The notes under the pieces: model-generated
What the model was told of the DNA's origin: nothing
Databases searched by the model: none
Seen by the model: only the letters and a program-made list of their open reading frames with translations
Shown: piece by piece, positions 36,562 to 45,704 of the stretch
Layout: each line of letters begins with the position of its first letter
How positions within the stretch are numbered: position 1 is the first letter of the stretch
Position numbers and translations under genes: made by a program
Assembly: GCA_004379135.1 (NCBI GenBank)
Contig: NBNI01000007.1
Span: 917,501-981,500, forward strand
Length of the DNA: 64,000 nucleotides
Direction: 5' to 3'
From: Acidimicrobiales bacterium mtb01
GTDB lineage: Bacteria > Actinomycetota > Acidimicrobiia > Acidimicrobiales > Ilumatobacteraceae

Positions 36562-37206
36562 GTGGGACGCATCGACACCGTCATCTTCGACTTGGGCGGC
36601 GTGCTGTCGTTGTCGGGTCGGGCCATCGACATGGCCCGCCGATTCCCGAGTCATCCGCCCGAGGTCGTGATGAACGTCCTGATGGGCGATTACGCGAGCG
36701 ACCACGACCACCCGTGGCACCGACTCGAGCGCGGCGAGATCTCGATGAACGAATACCGCGAGGCTGTGGCACCCCTCATCGCCGAGGCCGGACTGGTGGC
36801 GGCCGAGCCTCCGCCCGAAATCAAGAAGGGCTCCGGTGTGAACTTCGCCTTCGTGCGCAGCGAGCCGATGTTCGCCCTCGTCGACGATTTGCGTGCGAAT
36901 GGGCTGCGCGTCGGGGTGCTCACCAACAACGTGCGCGAGCTGCGGTCGCGTTGGTGGGATCTCGTGGACTTCCCGAGTTTGTTCGACGACATCGTCGACA
37001 GCCACGAAGTCGGATTGCGCAAACCCAATGCGGCCATTTACCACTTGGCCCTGGATCGTCTAGGAGCCGCAGCCGAGCGAACCGCGTTCCTGGACGACAT
37101 GGTGGTGAACGTGGACGCCGCCCGCGCGGTGGGCATGCACGGCGTGCTGGTGGAGGACGATCAGTCGGGAGCGATCGCCACGGTGCGCGACCTCGCCGGC
37201 GTCTGA
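36562..37206 (+). CDS. HAD-IA family hydrolase
   Basis: A 214-residue HAD hydrolase of the same subgroup as the one at 5003. Motif I is VIFDLGGVLSL, motif II VLTNNVRELR, motif III VGLRKPNAAIY, motif IV AFLDDMVVNVDAA. As in its paralogue, Gly replaces the usual second Asp of motif I. GTG 36562 is preferred over ATG 36523 because CAAACT lies 6 bases before it and the protein then begins just before motif I. Its 3' end overlaps the convergent comF-like gene by 46 bases, the longest coding overlap in the window. Confidence 0.83.
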   Translation: MGRIDTVIFDLGGVLSLSGRAIDMARRFPSHPPEVVMNVLMGDYASDHDHPWHRLERGEISMNEYREAVAPLIAEAGLVAAEPPPEIKKGSGVNFAFVRSEPMFALVDDLRANGLRVGVLTNNVRELRSRWWDLVDFPSLFDDIVDSHEVGLRKPNAAIYHLALDRLGAAAERTAFLDDMVVNVDAARAVGMHGVLVEDDQSGAIATVRDLAGV

Positions 37207-37817
37207 CGACGATCGGGTGTGGCGGCCGCGGCGAGCGTCGCGACGTCGGCCCAACCGGCCGAACCGAGTGCGTGAGCGGCCGCGCGCAGCGTGGCACCGG
37301 TGGTGACCACGTCGTCGATGACGAGAACGTTGAGAGGCGCGCGGGTGGGTCGGGCGCGGAACGTCGGGCCGCTCAGGCGAGCATGACGCGTGCGCCCGGT
37401 TTGGGCCGGACCCGACTCGCGCACGAGCAGGCACCGACACGGGATCCGCAGGTCGCGCGCGACCAGCCGAGCTATCAACTCGGATTGATCGAAACCGCGA
37501 CGACGGCGGCGGGATGTCGAGGTGGGCGCCCACGTGACCACTTCGAACATTCGCCCATCGGCGCGAACCGAACGAGCGAGTTCGGCAGCGAGGGCGCGGG
37601 CCGCCGACTGACGTCCGCGGAACTTGAGATCGGACACGAGTCGACGCGTGGAGCCCTCGTACACCAGGGCGGCGTTGTCGACCGAAACGACGGCGGCGGG
37701 AAGTCCGCGGCAGTCGGGGCACAGGCGCGTGAGCGAACCCGACCAGGTATCGCGGTCGCGGTGGGGTTGAACCCGGAACATGTGGTGGCAGTGCGGGCAG
37801 CGCAGGGCGGTGAACAT
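37161..37817 (-). CDS. ComF/GntX-family phosphoribosyltransferase-like protein
   Basis: A 218-residue protein. An N-terminal zinc-ribbon is suggested by CPHCHH and CPDC (Cys pairs about 25 residues apart), followed by a type I PRTase domain with PRPP loop VLVIDDVVTTGATLRAAA. The middle has RRRRGFDQSELIARLVAR and QTGRTRHARL, typical of ComF. In other bacteria ComF assists DNA uptake. No com genes are nearby, so competence is not implied. Start ATG 37817. The C-terminal 15 codons overlap the end of the HAD gene. Confidence 0.85.
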   Translation of the reverse strand: MFTALRCPHCHHMFRVQPHRDRDTWSGSLTRLCPDCRGLPAAVVSVDNAALVYEGSTRRLVSDLKFRGRQSAARALAAELARSVRADGRMFEVVTWAPTSTSRRRRRGFDQSELIARLVARDLRIPCRCLLVRESGPAQTGRTRHARLSGPTFRARPTRAPLNVLVIDDVVTTGATLRAAAHALGSAGWADVATLAAAATPDRRQTPARSRTVAIAPD

Positions 37818-37865
37818 GCCTTCACCCGACCACAGGGGTGTGGCACGGAAGCCGACGACGAATTC

Positions 37866-39332
37866 TCAGTTGCTCCAGAGGGTGCGGAGGCGGGGTTCGG
37901 GGTCGGCGATCTCGCTGCACTCGACATCGAACCGCCACGTACTGCGGCGATCGAGGTCGTACGGCGACCACGCCAGCGACCCGTCCGTCGCGAACGACAG
38001 CACCTGAGCGGCCACTTGATCGGCCACGACCGCGCGGTCGGCTCCGTCACCGGTGAACAAACCCACGCCGGGCTGATCGAGGTTGTGGAACGTGAACGGA
38101 ATGTCGATCGCGTGGCACGACCCGAGCACTCCGCCGAAGGCCGGACTGGCCCACGTGAACCAATACATGTGCGTGGGCGTACCGGAATTCGCGCGCTTCT
38201 CGGCCAGGCGAATCGCCCGCTGTCGGAATCCCTCATCGGTTTGTGCCGCCATCACCAACTGCGCGTCGCTCTCGCCCGGCCGATGTTCGCGATACAACGC
38301 GATCGCCTCGTCGACGCGGTCGGGCAGCATCCCGGCGAAGAACGTGCGCATCTTGTCGTCGTCCATCGACGCCGCTTCGGGTGAGAACGCCCCGAAGAGA
38401 CGATTCTCGTCGCGCGTGGTCCCGACCACGAGATGAGCCGAATGGTCGGCCGCCGCACCCACGATCTCGTGCGGAAGACCGGAGCCGGGCCAGGTGGGAG
38501 CGAAGTAGTCGAAGGCTCGGCCGTTCTCGGCCAACAACACTCCTTGCGCGGCGAGCAATTGATCGCTCGACAAAGCGAGCAGTTCATCGTCGGTCGACAC
38601 TCCGGCCGCCTTCAGGAACTTGTCGGCGAGTTCGTGGCCGCGTTCCGCGTTCCGATACTGGCCGATCGACGGACTCATCGACCACACCTTGTGGAAGAGC
38701 CCGGCCGACAACGGTGACGCCATCAACGCGACGACGCTGGATCCGCCGGCCGACTCGCCGAAGATCGTGACGTTGTTCGGATCGCCTCCGAACGACGCGA
38801 TGTGCGACTGGACCCAGCGCAACGCCTCGATCTGATCGAGCAGACCGAGGTTGTTGTCGCGGAAGAAACCGAAGACCCCGAGCCGATAGTTGATCGACAC
38901 CACGATCACGTCGCCGCGACGGGCCAGCGACGATCCGTCGTACCAAGGAGTCGATCCTGACCCGTTCACGTAGGCCCCGCCGTGGATCCACACCAGAACC
39001 GGACGTGGCGTCGCCGAACCGGCAACGACCGACGGCGGAACGAACACGCCGAGGCTGAGGCAGTCCTCGCTCATGGGCGGAAGTGCGGCGCCCATCGTGG
39101 ATTCGAGGAGGCCGGGCGCCTGCGGGCAGATGGGGCCGTGGTTCGTCGCGTCCCGCTCGCCGGACCACGGTGCTTCGGGAACTGCGGGGGCGAACCGGTC
39201 GGCCCGAGCGTAGCGAAGTCCCAGGAAGGCACCGGTTCCGTCGGGTCGGGCCAGACCTTTCACCTTCCCGGAGGGGGTGTCGATCAGGAGGGTCGCGGGC
39301 ATTTCCACATCAGTCGTCGAAATCTGGGTCAC
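37866..39332 (-). CDS. Type B carboxylesterase
   Basis: A 488-residue carboxylesterase/lipase of the type B (acetylcholinesterase-like) family. VLVWIHGGAYVNGSGS is the oxyanion hole, SINYRLGVFGFF and GLLDQIEALRWVQ follow, and NVTIFGESAGGSSVVALMA carries the nucleophile Ser. The C-terminal GSCHAIDIPFTFHN holds the catalytic His. No signal peptide is visible, so it is probably cytoplasmic. GTG 39332 is supported by a TACTGT hexamer exactly 6 bases upstream on the minus strand. Confidence 0.9.
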   Translation of the reverse strand: MTQISTTDVEMPATLLIDTPSGKVKGLARPDGTGAFLGLRYARADRFAPAVPEAPWSGERDATNHGPICPQAPGLLESTMGAALPPMSEDCLSLGVFVPPSVVAGSATPRPVLVWIHGGAYVNGSGSTPWYDGSSLARRGDVIVVSINYRLGVFGFFRDNNLGLLDQIEALRWVQSHIASFGGDPNNVTIFGESAGGSSVVALMASPLSAGLFHKVWSMSPSIGQYRNAERGHELADKFLKAAGVSTDDELLALSSDQLLAAQGVLLAENGRAFDYFAPTWPGSGLPHEIVGAAADHSAHLVVGTTRDENRLFGAFSPEAASMDDDKMRTFFAGMLPDRVDEAIALYREHRPGESDAQLVMAAQTDEGFRQRAIRLAEKRANSGTPTHMYWFTWASPAFGGVLGSCHAIDIPFTFHNLDQPGVGLFTGDGADRAVVADQVAAQVLSFATDGSLAWSPYDLDRRSTWRFDVECSEIADPEPRLRTLWSN

Positions 39333-39338
39333 CGGCGA

Positions 39339-39344
39339 ACAGTA
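39339..39344 (-). promoter_or_regulatory. -10 hexamer TACTGT of leaderless carboxylesterase gene
   Basis: Reading minus, TACTGT then TCGCCG then GTG 39332. This is the 6-base leaderless arrangement, and no Shine-Dalgarno motif is seen. Confidence 0.55.
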
Positions 39345-39429
39345 ACGCGATCGAAAAGTGCCAGGTTCGCCCGGCCGGTTGCAGTCGAATCCCAGGAACC
39401 AGGGAATCCGCTACGACAAGATTTTAATC

Positions 39430-39457
39430 GAATGTAGTTCAATTCTTTGCTACATTC
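39430..39457 (+). promoter_or_regulatory. Promoter of the giant repeat lipoprotein with an overlapping dyad
   Basis: In an unusually AT-rich stretch, GAATGTAG (39430-39437) and its exact reverse complement CTACATTC (39450-39457) flank a 12-base spacer. The right arm contains TACATT (39451-39456), a good -10 for the lipoprotein gene. TSS would fall near 39463, giving a leader of about 48 bases with AGGAG at 39503-39507. A dyad over a -10 is a typical repressor site. Confidence 0.5.
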
Positions 39458-39510
39458 GCCCCGTCGGCCTCTCGGGATGAACCCCGGGCCACGAGGAAAG
39501 CGAGGAGACC

Positions 39511-42500
39511 ATGCGTCGCATCTGGTCGGCCACCGTCATGGCTGGAGTTCTGTTGATCGGCGCCGCGTGCAGCGGTGGTGACAAGGACAGCGAGAGTTCG
39601 AGCGGGGACGGACGCAAGTTGTTCCAGCCCGCCGGCGTGGTGGGCCCCGACTCGTTCGCCCCCACCTTCGAGCTCACCCAGTACGACGTCGATCTGTCGG
39701 CGTTGTCGGAGGGTTCGGTCGACGGTTCGGCTCCCGGACTGTACGCCGGTCGCACGTACGGCGGTACCGGTACGAACATCTGCGACGTCGAGGCGATGAT
39801 TCGCTTCCTCACCTACTACGAAGAGCGCGGGCGTGCCTGGGCCGATGTCCAGGGCATCCCGTTCGAACAACTCCCCGACTATCTCCGCAGCCTCACGCCG
39901 GTCTACGCGCTGCAGAACCTGAACGTGCAGATGTTCGGGTTCAAGAACGACCAGGCCTACGGCTACGACGCCGTGATTGCGGCCGGCACGGCGATCCTGA
40001 TCGACGATCAGGGCATGCCGCGCGCTCGCTGTGCCTGCGGCAACCCTTTGCTGGCGCCGAGCGAGGAACCGCCCACCGAAGATTCGACTCCCTCCGGCGA
40101 CTCGAGGCCCGATATCACCACCGGTGAAGAGCCCCTGGGTTCCGACCAGCCCGGCGGTGGCGACCAGCCCGGCGGCGGCGACCAACCCGGCGGCGGCGAC
40201 CAACCCGGCGGCGGCGACCAACCCGGCGGCGGCGACCAACCCGGCGGCGGCGACCAACCCGGCGGCGGCGACCAACCCGGCGGCGGCGACCAACCCGGCG
40301 ATCCTCAGCAGCCAGCCTGCCCCGAGCTTTTGGTTGCCGGCTGGACCGATTACGGCGCACCCAACGGCGATGTGTGGCATTACGACCAGGCCGTGGGCGC
40401 CTGGATCAATCTCTCCGATCCGGCCGCTGATCCTGTTCCGAACGTCGTCGACCTTCCCGGGTGGCGCGACAACTGCGACGACGGCCGTCAGCGGCAGGTC
40501 GATCCGATCTGCCCGCAATTGCTGATCGGTGGCGGTTGGACGCCGTACATCGACACCAACGGCGACGAGTGGCAGTTCGACCCCGCCAACAACTGGTGGA
40601 AGAACGTCACCGCGGTCCCGACTCCCGATCCCGTCACCGACATGAACGACATGCCGGGCTGGACCGAACTGTGCGGCGACGATCAGCCTCGCCAGCCCAA
40701 CAGCGAGTGCCCGCCCAACAAGGCGAACGTCGGCGACATCTGGAACGCACCTGACGGTCGTCAGTGGCAGCTCTGGCTCGACGGTCTCGCCCTCGTGTGG
40801 GACGAGATCACGACCCCCGACATCCAAGAAGGCGTTCCGTACGCCGATCTGGTGATCCTCTACGACTGCGCACCGCCGTTCGACGAAGGCCAACCCGAGT
40901 GCCCGCCGTCGAAGCCGATCGCCGGTCAGACCTGGATCGACACCCTCGGCAACCTGTGGCTGTTCGACAACCACACGGGTGGCGCGTACGCCTGGGACAA
41001 CCAGGCCACCGCCGACGTCGAGATGGTGAAGACGGAAGCACTCCCCAACCAACCCGAAGGTTGCCAACCCGAACTCTGGCAGGACCCGTGCCCCGAACTG
41101 CAGCCCCGCCCGGGTGCCGTGTGGGTGAACCCCAACAACGGCGACCTGTGGGTGTGGTTGTTCGATCAGGGTCACTGGTTCAACGACTCCGATCCCACGC
41201 AGCCGACGATCTCCAACACGGCGCTGTTGCCCGGATACCGCGAACTGTGCATGCCTCCTTGTCCGCCCATCAACATCGGGCCAAACGAGACCGCGCACTG
41301 GATCGATCCCGTCACCGGAAACGTGTGGGTCTGGTTCGAGGGCCAGTGGGTCAATTCCGACGACAAGTCGCAGACGGTCGCGCAAACCTCCGATCTGCCC
41401 GGCTGGCTCGAACTCTGCGCCCCGCCGTGTCTGCCCGGACTCATCGAGCCGCTGAACAGCTTCATCCTCGATGACAACGGTCAGCCCGAGTCGAACCCCG
41501 AAACCGACGACCAGGTCGGCGACTCGGGCGACAAGGCCGTGACGGTGGAGCCGGCCAAGGGTGACATCGAGATCGTTCCCATCAACGAAGATCAGGTGAA
41601 CGGCACCATCGCACCTCTCGACCTCTGCAATCCCGTCGGCTGCGTCGAGTTGGGAGCCGCACCCGAGATCGGTCACGTGTACACCGACAACCGCGGAGTT
41701 CGCTGGACCTACGTGGCCGAAGGGTCATGGCAGTCGGCACTCGGCGAGAGCGTCGCTGATGCTCTGCTGATCCCCGGCTACCGCGAGAACTGCCTGCCCG
41801 AGGACGACCCGTCGGACGATCCGTGCCCACCGGAGTTCGAAGGAGCGGTCTACGTCGACTCCAACGGAATCCAGTGGACCTGGGTCGGCGCTAACTCCGA
41901 CGCAGCGGAATCCGATCACGGCCGCCGTTGGTACTCCGAGGCGAGTGGGTCACCGGAATACCGGGCAACCATCGAACTCGAAACATGGTTCGACGACTGT
42001 CCGCCTCCGACCGATCCCGAGATCGTTCCGTTGGCATCGAGCATCGACGTCGATGTTCGGGTCCAGGGCCCGGTGTGCGTCGGCGACACGGTGCAGATCG
42101 TGATGTTCGCGACTCCCTCCGACGGTGAACGCATCACCGAGTACAAGATCACCATCAACGGCAATGGCGACGGAACCGAACAGGAGAACGCAACCACCTT
42201 CACCGAGACGTTCGTGCCCGAGCAGACGGGCGAATACGAGATCCTCGGACAGGCTTCCGACTCGAGCGGCAAATCGGGCCAGGACACCGAATTCGTGAAG
42301 GCGATCGATTGCGCCGACCCGCAGGATCAGGGCCAGCCGTCCGAACCGGGTGTCACGACCACCGTGGTGGCGACTCCCAATCAGTCGAGCACGTCAACGG
42401 CTCCGAAGAAGAACACTCCCCCGACAATCACGCTCAGCACCAAGCAGTTGTGCGTGGAGGCCATGTCGGAGGCGCCGACCAAGGTGTCGGTGACGGTGAG

Positions 42501-43191
42501 CGTCAGCGATGCCGACAACGACGCGCTCAGCGTCACCGTCAAGGGTGGTTCGTCGACCCGGACGATTCCTTCCCAGACCGCGCAGGTCCAAGGATCCGGA
42601 ACGTCGACCTACAACTTCACCGTCGACTACAAGGATCGTGGAACCACCATCACGATCGATGGACAAGTCGACGACGGGCAAGCCCGCGCCAACGCGAGCG
42701 TGAGCATCAGGGTGGTCAACCCCGGTGGCTGTGGTCAGAGCACCACGACCACCGCGGCACAGCCGACCACGACCGCACCGCCGAAGACCACGACGACGTT
42801 GAAGCCGACGCAAACGACGACAACGTTGAAGCCGGCCCAGACGACAACGACGTTGAAGCCGACCCAAACGACGACGACGTCGAAGCCGGCTCAGACCCCG
42901 ACCACCGTGGCGGCCAACACTCCGGGTCGTCTGGACCTGACGACCAAGTGCGTCCAGCTCAATGCCCAAGGCACCGGAGTCGTCACCTTCACGGTGGTCG
43001 ATGCGGATGGCTTGAAGAAGGTCACTGCATCGCCGACGACACTGACCCTGAAGGGCGATCTGCAAAGCGGCAGGTTCGAAGTCGGCCCGATCACGAAGGC
43101 CGACGCTGGCAAGACCATCACCATCGACGTGCTGGACGGCAAGGGCGTCGCCGGCTCGTACAGGTTGATCGTGCCGGCGATCTGCAAATGA
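39511..43191 (+). CDS. Large secreted lipoprotein: DUF6777 head, eight Cys/Trp repeats, Ig-like and Thr-rich segments
   Basis: A 1226-residue exported protein. Signal with lipobox GAACSGG; residues about 36-195 match the DUF6777 pattern (GLYAGRTYGG, ICDVEAMIRFL, PDYLRSLTPVYALQ, AGTAILIDDQGMPRARCACG). Next come an acidic linker and eight tandem GGGDQP units (about 215-262). Eight Cys-bracketed repeats of 50-65 residues then start near 270, 333, 400, 464, 527, 584, 711 and 771. Each runs CP-x(n)-G-x-x-W-x-D-x-x-G-x-x-W-x-W-x(n)-W-x-N to LPGW/LPGY-x-x-x-C; repeats 6 and 7 are separated by an extra acidic linker. Two Ig/PKD-like domains (about 845-935 and 965-1070), a TTTTLKP linker and a last Ig-like domain with terminal Cys complete it. 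This is a modular surface protein, perhaps for adhesion or carbohydrate binding (inference). Starts at ATG 39511 behind GAGGAGA. Confidence 0.85.
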   Translation: MRRIWSATVMAGVLLIGAACSGGDKDSESSSGDGRKLFQPAGVVGPDSFAPTFELTQYDVDLSALSEGSVDGSAPGLYAGRTYGGTGTNICDVEAMIRFLTYYEERGRAWADVQGIPFEQLPDYLRSLTPVYALQNLNVQMFGFKNDQAYGYDAVIAAGTAILIDDQGMPRARCACGNPLLAPSEEPPTEDSTPSGDSRPDITTGEEPLGSDQPGGGDQPGGGDQPGGGDQPGGGDQPGGGDQPGGGDQPGGGDQPGGGDQPGDPQQPACPELLVAGWTDYGAPNGDVWHYDQAVGAWINLSDPAADPVPNVVDLPGWRDNCDDGRQRQVDPICPQLLIGGGWTPYIDTNGDEWQFDPANNWWKNVTAVPTPDPVTDMNDMPGWTELCGDDQPRQPNSECPPNKANVGDIWNAPDGRQWQLWLDGLALVWDEITTPDIQEGVPYADLVILYDCAPPFDEGQPECPPSKPIAGQTWIDTLGNLWLFDNHTGGAYAWDNQATADVEMVKTEALPNQPEGCQPELWQDPCPELQPRPGAVWVNPNNGDLWVWLFDQGHWFNDSDPTQPTISNTALLPGYRELCMPPCPPINIGPNETAHWIDPVTGNVWVWFEGQWVNSDDKSQTVAQTSDLPGWLELCAPPCLPGLIEPLNSFILDDNGQPESNPETDDQVGDSGDKAVTVEPAKGDIEIVPINEDQVNGTIAPLDLCNPVGCVELGAAPEIGHVYTDNRGVRWTYVAEGSWQSALGESVADALLIPGYRENCLPEDDPSDDPCPPEFEGAVYVDSNGIQWTWVGANSDAAESDHGRRWYSEASGSPEYRATIELETWFDDCPPPTDPEIVPLASSIDVDVRVQGPVCVGDTVQIVMFATPSDGERITEYKITINGNGDGTEQENATTFTETFVPEQTGEYEILGQASDSSGKSGQDTEFVKAIDCADPQDQGQPSEPGVTTTVVATPNQSSTSTAPKKNTPPTITLSTKQLCVEAMSEAPTKVSVTVSVSDADNDALSVTVKGGSSTRTIPSQTAQVQGSGTSTYNFTVDYKDRGTTITIDGQVDDGQARANASVSIRVVNPGGCGQSTTTTAAQPTTTAPPKTTTTLKPTQTTTTLKPAQTTTTLKPTQTTTTSKPAQTPTTVAANTPGRLDLTTKCVQLNAQGTGVVTFTVVDADGLKKVTASPTTLTLKGDLQSGRFEVGPITKADAGKTITIDVLDGKGVAGSYRLIVPAICK
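40153..40296 (+). repeat. Eight tandem 18-bp units encoding GGGDQP
   Basis: The 18-base unit GGCGGCGGCGACCAACCC repeats eight times, nearly perfectly; only the first unit differs, at two bases. It encodes a flexible acidic-Gly/Pro linker between the DUF6777 head and the Cys/Trp repeats. Perfect DNA identity suggests recent slippage-driven expansion. Confidence 0.9.
42790..42896 (+). repeat. Tandem repeats encoding TTTTLKP(T/A)Q linker
   Basis: Four units of about 24-27 bases encode a Thr/Lys/Pro stalk (TTTTLKPTQ, TTTTLKPAQ, TTTTLKPTQ, TTTTSKPAQ) before the last Ig-like domain. Such stalks are usually extended and often O-glycosylated. Confidence 0.8.
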
Positions 43192-43215
43192 TCGCTCCGA
43201 CCGAGCAATCATTTG

Positions 43216-43252
43216 CTGAGGGCCCGGGCAACCGGGCCCTCAGTGCTTTTTC
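43216..43252 (+). terminator. Intrinsic terminator of the repeat lipoprotein gene
   Basis: A 12-bp stem (43216-43227 with 43232-43243) with GCAA loop is followed by GCTTTTTC. The right arm includes the stop codon of the convergent yczE-like gene. On the opposite strand no T tract follows, so it acts for the plus strand. Confidence 0.85.
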
Positions 43253-43851
43253 ACTTCGATCGTCACGCTCGACCTCTTGTCGAACAATGGCAGGAATCGC
43301 TGCACCAGCGGCCCGATCCCGAACGTGAACGCGATGGTGCCGAGGCCCACCGGTCCGCCCAGTGCGACACCCGCGATCAACACCGTGATCTCCACGCAGG
43401 TGCGCGCGAGTCGGATACTGATCCCCCGCTCCGACAGGCCGAGCATCAGCCCGTCGCGCGGACCCGGACCGAGACCGGCGCCGATGTAGAGCGCCGAACC
43501 CAACGCGACGATCAACAAGCCGGCAAACATCAGACCGAGTCGGGCGACGATGTCGTCGGGCTCACCGATGATCGGCTTGGTCAGGTTCACCACCAGGCCG
43601 ATCTCGATGGCGTTGAGGATCGTGCCCAGGCCGGGTCGCTGACGCAACGGGATCCAGAGGAGAAGCAACAGCACTCCGACACCGATGATCACGTTGCCGA
43701 TCGGAACATCGAGCTTCTCGGACAATCCCTTGTGGAAGACGTCCCACGGTGCCAGACCCAACTGCGCCCGGATGAAGAACGTGATCCCGAGCCCGAACAG
43801 GAACAGTCCGGCGATGCACCGGACGATCCGTTCGGGGAACGACACGCGCAT
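43240..43851 (-). CDS. YczE/YyaS/YitT-family membrane protein
   Basis: A 203-residue integral membrane protein with about five hydrophobic segments. FLFGLGITFFIRAQLGLAPWDVFHKGLS and a related second copy LGSALYIGAGLGPGPRDGLMLGLS show the internal repeat of the YitT/YczE family (DUF161). The molecular role is unknown, though YczE is linked to secondary metabolism in Bacillus. ATG 43851 overlaps the ahcY stop by one base (TGATG), so it is coupled to ahcY translation. Its stop lies inside the facing terminator stem. Confidence 0.85.
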   Translation of the reverse strand: MRVSFPERIVRCIAGLFLFGLGITFFIRAQLGLAPWDVFHKGLSEKLDVPIGNVIIGVGVLLLLLWIPLRQRPGLGTILNAIEIGLVVNLTKPIIGEPDDIVARLGLMFAGLLIVALGSALYIGAGLGPGPRDGLMLGLSERGISIRLARTCVEITVLIAGVALGGPVGLGTIAFTFGIGPLVQRFLPLFDKRSSVTIEVKKH

Positions 43852-45296
43852 CAGTAGCGGTAGTGATCGGGCTTGAACGGGCCCGACGGACTCACACCGA
43901 GGTAGTCGGCCTGCTCGTCGGTGAGCTTGGTCAACTTCACGCCCAGAGCGTCGAGGTGCAGCGATGCGACCTTCTCGTCGAGATGCTTCGGAAGCACGTA
44001 CACACCAAGCGGATACTTGGCCAGGTTGTTGAACAACTCGATCTGCGCGATCACCTGATTGGAGAACGAGCACGACATCACGAAACTCGGATGACCCGTC
44101 GCGCATCCGAGGTTCACCAGTCGGCCCTCGGCCAGGACGATGACCGAGTGACCGTCGGGGAACGACCACAGGTCGGTGCCCGGCTTGAGTTCGTCGCGGG
44201 TCGCCCCGCTGCGGGCCAGACCGGCCATGTCGATTTCCGAGTCGAAGTGGCCGATGTTGCACACGATCGCGTTGTGCTTCATCTTCCCCATGTGCTCGAC
44301 CGTGATGATGTGGTCGTTGCCGGTGGCCGAGACGAAGATGTCGGCGGTGCGGCACACGTCGTCGAGCGTCGTGACCTGGTAGCCCTCCATCGCCGCCTGG
44401 AGTGCGTTGATCGGATCGATCTCGGTGACGATGACACGTGCACCCTGGCCGCTCAGCGCCTGCGCGCAACCCTTGCCCACGTCGCCGTATCCGCACACCA
44501 CGGCGACCTTGCCGGCCAGCATCACGTCGGTCGCGCGGCAGATGGCGTCGACGAGCGAGTGGCGGCAGCCGTAGAGGTTGTCGAACTTCGACTTGGTGAC
44601 CGAATCGTTCACGTTGATGGCCGGGAACAGCAATTCGCCGCGCTCGTGCATCTTGTAGAGGCGCATCACGCCGGTGGTGGTCTCCTCGGTGACGCCACGA
44701 ATGCCCTTGGCCATGCGCGTCCACTTGGTCGGATCCTGCTTCAAGCCACGCTGAAGAAGTCCGAGCACGATCGCCAACTCGGCGTTCGAGGCGGTGGTCG
44801 GGTCGGGAACCTCGCCCGACTTCTCGTACTCCACGCCCTTGTGCAGGAGGAGGGTGGCGTCGCCACCGTCGTCGAGGATCATGTTGGGGCCGTCGCCGTC
44901 GGGCCACGTCATCATCTGGTCGGTGCACCACCAGTACTCCTCGAGCGTCTCGCCCTTCCACGCGAACACCGGGACGCCTTGCGGGTCGTCGGGTGTTCCA
45001 TTCGGACCCACCACCACGGCCGCGGCCGCGTGGTCCTGGGTGGAGAAGATGTTGCACGACGCCCAGCGCACCTCGGCGCCGAGTTCGACGAGGGTCTCGA
45101 TGAGCACGGCCGTCTGGATCGTCATGTGCAGCGATCCGGAGATGCGCGCACCCTTCAGCGGCTTGGAAGCACCGAACTCCTTGCGCAGGGCGCGCAGGCC
45201 GGGCATCTCGTGCTCGGCCAAGTGGATCTCCTTGCGGCCGAATGATGCCATCGACACGTCGGCGACGCGGTAGTCCTTGCGGGCGGCGAGAGACAT
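43851..45296 (-). CDS. ahcY: S-adenosylhomocysteine hydrolase
   Basis: A 481-residue NAD-dependent enzyme that splits SAH to adenosine and homocysteine, closing the methyl cycle. Features: [59 protein letters not shown] (NAD fold), and the C-terminal KPDHYRY tail. The start ATG 45296 has AGAGG about 7 bases upstream; this is a leadered mRNA with an apparent 112-base structured 5' region. The length agrees with actinobacterial SahH. Confidence 0.97.
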
Positions 45297-45420
45297 GGGT
45301 GAACCTCTTTCAGGGGAATGCGGTTGATGGAGTCGTTCGGGGACGCGAAAAATCCGCGTCACCTCGGGCCGGGGCCTGCTGGCACCGCTCACATCAGCCC
45401 GATGGGACGAGCCGAGTGTA
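45297..45420 (-). promoter_or_regulatory. Promoter and structured 5' leader of ahcY, candidate riboregulator
   Basis: TACACT (45420-45415, minus strand) suggests transcription from near 45408 and a leader of about 112 bases, rare in this window. Predicted helices by eye: 45404-45395 with 45371-45360 (10 pairs, 2-base bulge), and 45360-45355 with 45347-45342 (GACGCG/CGCGUC, loop GAUUUUU). A ribosome site near the start follows. The consensus of known SAH and SAM riboswitches is not obvious, so the class is unresolved. Confidence 0.4.
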
Positions 45421-45461
45421 ATCGCCGGCCTCGAGCCGGCGCTCGATCTCGAGCTCGACGG

Positions 45462-45704
45462 TCAGGCGGCGGCCGAACCGGTCGGCCGGGCCTCGCCACG
45501 CGCGATGCGGCCGGCCAGACGCTCGTGTTCGGAGTCGGATACCACGTCCGACTCGTCGACGAGCATGACCGCGATGCCTTCGCGGATGGCGTAGCGCCGC
45601 TTGAGACGGGGGTTGTAGATGCAGTTCTCGTCGTCGAACACGAACAACTGGCCGTGGTCGATCGGGCAGGCCAGGACGCTCACGAGATCCGGGTCGAGTG
45701 ACAT
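45462..45704 (-). CDS. Trm112-family small protein
   Basis: An 80-residue protein of the Trm112/UPF0434 family: LVSVLACPIDHGQLFVFDDE and RRYAIREGIAVML. In eukaryotes Trm112 activates methyltransferases; bacterial members are uncharacterised. Only one Cys of the usual zinc-binding four is seen (CPIDHG, with a later isolated Cys), so zinc binding is doubtful. AGGGAA lies 8 bases before ATG 45704. It follows manB by 30 bases, as part of an actinobacterial conserved neighbourhood near ahcY. Confidence 0.82.
   Translation of the reverse strand: MSLDPDLVSVLACPIDHGQLFVFDDENCIYNPRLKRRYAIREGIAVMLVDESDVVSDSEHERLAGRIARGEARPTGSAAA

Follow-up and report, generated by a model that had tools for sequence, protein, structure and literature searches.

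A DUF6777 protein of Acidimicrobiales bacterium mtb01 with an array of seemingly new tryptophan-rich modules

We analyzed a window of 64,000 nucleotides from Acidimicrobiales bacterium mtb01 (contig NBNI01000007.1; G000:C1:917501-981500), and therein a single large gene on the plus strand (39511-43191; all positions refer to the window) whose product of 1226 amino acids combines a head of the family DUF6777 with eight tryptophan-rich repeats, termed W-units below. The open reading frame starts with ATG behind a ribosome-binding site, GAGGAGA, at 39502-39508, and in the 2.56-Mb genome, which is 97.66% complete, it matches only itself. Compared with the orthologue L002, the ratio of nonsynonymous to synonymous substitution rates (dN/dS) is 0.157 over 1208 codons, supporting a real gene, and as judged from this one species pair the gene is under purifying selection. 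Long open reading frames are present on the minus strand of the region as well.

The protein begins with a putative signal peptide (39511-39570) that ends in a loose lipobox with Cys20 as the probable lipid anchor. The DUF6777 head (39715-40074) and a GGGDQP spacer, encoded by an 18-bp minisatellite of 8.8 copies (40143-40300), precede the W-unit array, and beyond it lie two Ig-like domains at 42034-42312 (Cys856, Cys934) and 42412-42732 (Cys981, Cys1074), a Thr/Lys/Pro stalk (42739-42921) with arrays of 27-bp repeats within 42746-42897, and a C-terminal domain (42922-43188; Cys1147, Cys1225) that is possibly Ig-like as well, its match to Pfam Cadherin (E 0.15, residues 1151-1202) not being significant. 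An initial annotation, made from the sequence alone, had described a protein of this length with a lipobox, a DUF6777 head, a GGGDQP tract, eight repeats, Ig-like parts and a Thr-Lys-Pro stalk, and this layout is borne out, with the qualification that the lipobox follows only a loose pattern with Gly at position -3. The minisatellite varies among species both in copy number and in unit length, and in genome G001 one contig stops, and another starts, inside the tract.

DUF6777 is the sole Pfam family above its cut-off in a scan of the whole protein. The Ig-like parts find support in a match of the first domain, as a profile of six rows (A8), to chain 2yn3 (E 1.5e-5), which we take to be the giant adhesin SiiE, and in a near-match of the second to Big_9 (E 3.9e-4) that at 21.7 bits stays below the cut-off of 23.6; the best PDB profile match of this second domain has E 0.31. 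Bacterial Ig domains of this kind resemble the flanking domains only and not the W-unit, and here each Ig-like domain carries a cysteine at both ends. Of the 28 cysteines of the protein, one is the presumed lipid cysteine, three belong to the head, 18 serve as brackets of nine segments that have no cysteine inside, and six edge the three C-terminal domains.

Eight of the nine bracketed segments are the W-units, at residues 270-322 (40318-40476), 334-388 (40510-40674), 400-453 (40708-40869), 464-518 (40900-41064), 527-580 (41089-41250), 584-636 (41260-41418), 711-761 (41641-41793) and 772-830 (41824-42000), joined by linkers of 3-11 residues, among them short MPP and APP linkers on either side of unit 6. 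The consensus, obtained by reading the alignments A1 and A2, is C-P-P, a loop, G-x-x-[WY]-x-D-x-x-G-x-x-W-x-[WY], a second loop, W-x-N, a third loop and T-x-x-L-P-G-[YW]-x-x-x-C. The initial annotation had recognized the eight Cys-bracketed Trp units, with motifs more strict than they prove to be: a Cys-Pro start is found in seven of the eight and an [LMI]PG[WY]xxxC end in five. It had also overlooked the ninth bracketed segment, which is free of tryptophan. Residues 270-830 contain 32 of the 34 tryptophans of the protein, and the eight units combined are acidic (64 Asp/Glu versus 15 Lys/Arg). Of 95 units, 94 have a cysteine near both ends, where a slack of about 12 residues was allowed and the units were found with a profile that itself contains the cysteines. 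The single exception is a unit in L011 (G012:C91), where a frameshift or an assembly error divides the array between two reading frames.

The reality of the repeats was assessed with profiles built from orthologous units. With nine units of L007 the eight units scored 10.0-42.6 bits against 8.0 for the best of 1000 shuffles, and with nine units of L009 they scored 9.8-43.5 bits against 8.9. Margins were narrow for unit 3 (10.0 versus 8.0 with L007, 11.9 versus 8.9 with L009) and for unit 2 (9.8 versus 8.9 with L009). When six units of L039, from a second genus, were used instead, the profile was weak and put only units 7 and 8 (21.4 and 18.2 bits) above its best shuffle of 10.7. Note that the shuffle test is not fully independent, because the profile that served to excise the orthologous units had itself been seeded with the units of this protein. 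Unit 3, the most divergent, was recovered at E 0.014 with the profile A2, which comprises 40 of the units found and was built without it. Overlapping copies (L001, L019-L022, L040) had been dropped, and the near-copies L004 and L008 were removed from the cysteine and motif count. Within its own genome, the unit profile finds W-units only in this protein.

In line with the initial annotation, no named domain accounts for the unit. The best E value in a Pfam scan of 40 single units was 0.0026, and any given family appeared in two of them at most; a scan of 40 units against PHROGs gave the same best value, each family appearing in at most one, and NCBIfam, searched with the whole protein only, names no W-unit family. 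PADLOC gave no match, nor did Rfam over positions 37000-45500, and a literature search by title, wider searches included, returned nothing on DUF6777 and nothing relevant otherwise. On these grounds the W-unit looks real and new, an apparently undescribed module that gives a new architecture to DUF6777, a known family which is itself unexplained.

Independent folding of the unit had been set as a check on its modular nature, and the AlphaFold2 model of unit 5 alone, calculated from 17 rows of this protein and L002, agrees with it: the predicted local distance difference test score (pLDDT) is 94.0 and the predicted template modelling score (pTM) 0.76, for a structure of three strands and a short C-terminal helix. 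A single W-unit is thus predicted to fold on its own. The tandem of units 5 and 6 (8 rows) was modelled with pLDDT 85.0 and pTM 0.60, and the relative orientation of the two is for this reason not fixed. In a comparison of the unit model with solved structures by VIA-align, the best match was 6nw9_C, part of a phage tailspike, with Z 3.5 and a root mean square deviation of 2.8 over 41 aligned residues; the tandem model reached at best Z 3.3. Such weak scores neither show nor exclude a known fold, and a new fold is not demonstrated by the model.

The resemblance to phage tails suggested by the initial annotation is a lead only. Hairpins of phage tail fibres and tailspikes, such as the C-terminal part of CBA120 TSP3, provide the best overlay with a solved structure, yet the scores are within noise, and matches to phages by sequence are at E 0.1 or worse. 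The best match in a viral library had E 0.26, with tail-fibre and collagen-repeat proteins among the matches, the whole protein had no match at E 0.01 in phage records, and units 5 and 6 searched singly against phages reached best values of E 2 and 0.1. Viral contigs, searched with exact peptide patterns only, contained no close relative of the protein, and 23 matches to head patterns in these contigs included no relative.

A second family of structures raises the question whether the array consists of separate modules at all. The W-unit shares a short G..Y.D..G..W......W signature with the blades of beta-propellers (designed 'Cake', Kelch, BNR), and the eight units might form one closed eight-bladed propeller. 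The PDB profile search indeed retrieved the designed 'Cake' propellers at E 1.2e-9, a value summed from stretches of about 7-9 bits each, the unit scans yielded scattered Kelch, BNR and RHS matches, and WD40 and other propellers were among the weak fold matches. Unlike the four-stranded blades that close into a propeller ring, however, the W-unit is modelled with three strands and a helix, has a cysteine at both ends and occurs in variable number, and the lone unit is confidently predicted; in addition, the array is interrupted by the ninth segment and its linkers extend to 11 residues. We consider a closed propeller highly improbable and prefer an array of separately folding modules.

The interrupting segment, designated X (residues 640-706, 41428-41628), lies between units 6 and 7, is conserved within the genus and shows a V-T-V...I pattern, by which it was cut in nine rows of the same genus; five further rows (L063, L057, L058, L059 and L014) were cut by eye. 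A model from five genus rows recognized the segment of this protein, P0001, with 13.1 bits and that of L006 with 15.0 bits, against 7.1 for the best shuffle. With a model from nine genus rows, L059 scored 7.4 bits versus a best shuffle of 5.8, and L063 (3.0), L058 (0.6), L014 (-0.5) and L057 (below 0) remained under it. Upon addition of L014 to the model, L063 rose to 6.6 versus 5.8 and L059 fell to 4.1. The X segment is perhaps a second type of module.

The head itself is a clear member of its family, matching DUF6777 (PF20568) at residues 69-188 with E 1.8e-35 and 122.5 bits against a curated cut-off of 27 bits, and its Cys and the CxCGNPL motif do not vary among 22 aligned heads (A7). The match, though, covers only profile positions 2-117 of 163 and not the full model. 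Outside the repeat-bearing group DUF6777 runs on into a tail of about 45 residues, roughly model positions 118-163, which is missing here with the W-array in its place. This difference recurs consistently: in 11 repeat-bearing genomes the match ends at profile position 113-121, and in eight others it reaches 159-163; W-units were absent from the six of these eight that were scanned. DUF6777 was found in 18 of 296 genomes of the phylum, where the best match per genome reaches at least position 146 except in the own genome and G108, both of which bear units. L058 and L059 have no tail by reading, and wherever the upstream sequence was covered, full units always stood behind heads without the family tail.

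In a tree of 33 head rows, the 13 repeat-bearing heads all lie on one side of one branch with support 96/93. The near-copies L003, L004 and L008 were removed from this tree, L017, L018, L036-L038, L045 and L046 were excluded because their heads lack the search motif, and the heads of L005 and L006 are lost at contig edges. Given that tail-less heads and units sit together on one side of this branch, the tail was probably replaced by the array once, and a single replacement is the simplest account of these data. It is a clear case of domain replacement, in which one DUF6777 group lacks the tail and has in its stead an array of modules that varies in length. An origin of the W-units from the DUF6777 tail itself was considered and rejected: hhalign of A2 against 19 tails returned Prob 0.02 and a score of -0.7, whereas among 100 column-shuffled decoys the best reached 3.9. 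No solved structure matched the 22-head profile at better than E 1.2, and plasmids held DUF6777 heads only, in seven records.

A whole-protein search matched 16 of 41 genomes, 12 of them among the 24 of the genus (the own genome included) and four outside it by the head alone. The unit profile matched seven of 296 genomes of the class. Five of these have units behind a DUF6777 head and come from three families of a single order, one of which is represented by two genera; the matches in the other two, G498 and G517, were set aside as RHS-type proteins by reading, with no cysteine bracket. In the phylum, the profile matched two of 396 genomes, both in the family of the host. The number of units is eight in the present protein, nine in L002, L006 and L007, and L058 and L059 from other families show 4-5 matches. 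Units 4-8 best match the unit one array place further on, which preserves their position relative to the end of the array, in 17 of 20 comparisons (L006, L007, L009 and L013), the three exceptions all occurring in L009. Within the genus, unit order is stable in the C-terminal half of the array, and the N-terminal half varies; in L002 the extra unit, located beside the spacer, is nearest to the last-unit type (0.55 to the last unit of L007 and 0.54 to that of L002).

Variation of this kind would be expected if the W-units were a mere spacer, a semi-rigid rod that binds nothing and raises the Ig-like end clear of the cell wall, and the differing unit number, the location of the variable part at the N-terminal side and the short linkers, MPP and APP, that flank unit 6 all speak for such a rod. 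The conservation of array place in units 4-8 and the low dN/dS of the units (0.033-0.279) nevertheless suggest individual roles for which an interchangeable spacer has no need, and we regard the spacer as unlikely.

The reading that we favour, and to which we give an even chance of being right, is that of a large modular surface fibre anchored in the membrane, with a conserved head at the membrane side, separately folding modules and an outer end that evolves faster. Lipidated Cys20 would fix the protein to the membrane beside the slowly evolving head (dN/dS 0.052 for signal plus head). In place of the DUF6777 tail there would follow eight small, acidic beta modules that fold separately, each with a cysteine at either end and with Trp-rich strands, and beyond them the Ig-like domains, the Thr-rich stalk and the faster-evolving C-terminal domain (dN/dS 0.371) would face outward. 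The array and the Ig-like end may then hold or contact an extracellular partner, be it a glycan, a wall polymer or another cell, and the adhesin or glycan-binding role proposed in the initial annotation would fit here. Because the head is nearly fixed and the C-terminal domain changes faster in the one species pair compared, the fibre may have a constant partner at its base and variable ones at its outer end. Lipid anchoring, surface display and partner contact are inferred in this scheme. The N-terminus ends in LLIGAAC, of which Cys20 is probably lipidated, and the loose PROSITE-type lipobox is present in ten of ten N-termini of the genus. The two cysteines of each unit may close it by a disulphide.

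Several observations weigh against this reading. A stricter lipobox pattern, with Leu, Val or Ile at -3, occurs in none of the ten N-termini of the genus, Gly occupying this position in the present protein, and four repeat proteins of the second genus and of other families, when examined, showed a hydrophobic segment but lacked a lipobox. Against disulphides, VKOR and Thioredoxin_4 were without a match in the genome in a search that did not extend to DsbB, no leader is visible in the best DSBA match, and a DsbD_TM match stays below its cut-off. For the unit model, the best Foldseek match to a solved structure had E 1.1, none falling below 1. The increase of dN/dS towards the outer end, in the one species pair, is not monotonic, with 0.279 in unit 4 and 0.051 in unit 8. 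Finally, 12 of the 24 genomes of the genus have no match, including G003, G004, G008 and G010 at 91-97% completeness, so that the protein is dispensable; some of the absences may be artefacts, as assemblies often break at this gene, in G001 for example at the GGDQP tract. The lack of a match to VKOR or Thioredoxin_4 contrasts with the 28 cysteines of an apparently exported protein.

For the W-unit itself we tentatively propose a new small domain family that arose once in one order of Actinomycetota, with a closed three-stranded Trp core and a tandem array of position-specialized, ligand-binding units in place of the DUF6777 tail, and with the X segment as a second conserved module that has its own role in the fibre. 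The array extends what is described of the surface proteins of these actinobacteria, most of which are represented here by metagenome assemblies (the contigs L002 and L003 among them), by an undescribed and probably self-folding extracellular module. As the units of about 54 residues are predicted to fold alone, they should be easy to express for work on structure, disulphides and ligands, and through the head a function might be assigned to DUF6777.

A different role for the family would be in signalling, where DUF6777 proteins would provide the ectodomains and the W-units a lineage-specific sensor. In seven of 20 DUF6777 loci the retrieved stretch also contains a Ser/Thr kinase, in one case as a fusion (L102:1528-3879), and on a Rhodococcus plasmid a kinase annotated as PknD is convergent with DUF6777 (L090:5593-8877). 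The six neighbour cases (L092-L095, L097 and L108), however, all come from one genus, g61, and were counted without a control of random loci, and none turned up in the 64-kb window. We judge a sensor improbable for the present protein and retain the surface fibre; the proximity and fusion to kinases elsewhere hint at envelope signalling as a lead for the family only.

In the window, the gene stands in the order SecA, HAD hydrolase, phosphoribosyltransferase, esterase, this gene, a membrane protein at 43240-43851 on the minus strand which we take to be YczE-like, SAHH and phosphomannomutase; a Pfam query over the YczE-like frame returned no family. Neighbours from this set keep their place in seven of the eight other informative genomes of the genus (G001, G005, G007, G011, G012, G015 and G017), with the esterase absent from the set in G007 and G017. 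The eighth, G013 (L083), has none of them, and in G002, G016 and G023 the contigs are too short for the comparison. A YczE-like gene with 48 and 46% identity is also located near the gene in two genomes of the second genus (L084 and L085). Between the gene and its convergent neighbour lies a terminator-like hairpin of 14 pairs (43214-43245, plus strand), the longest stem among three such sites, versus 2.5 expected by chance, and from its position 3' of the gene, the gene is probably transcribed alone. In the leader, a further inverted repeat, CGAATGTAG/CTACATTCG, at 39429-39458 is kept in part in L002 and L003.

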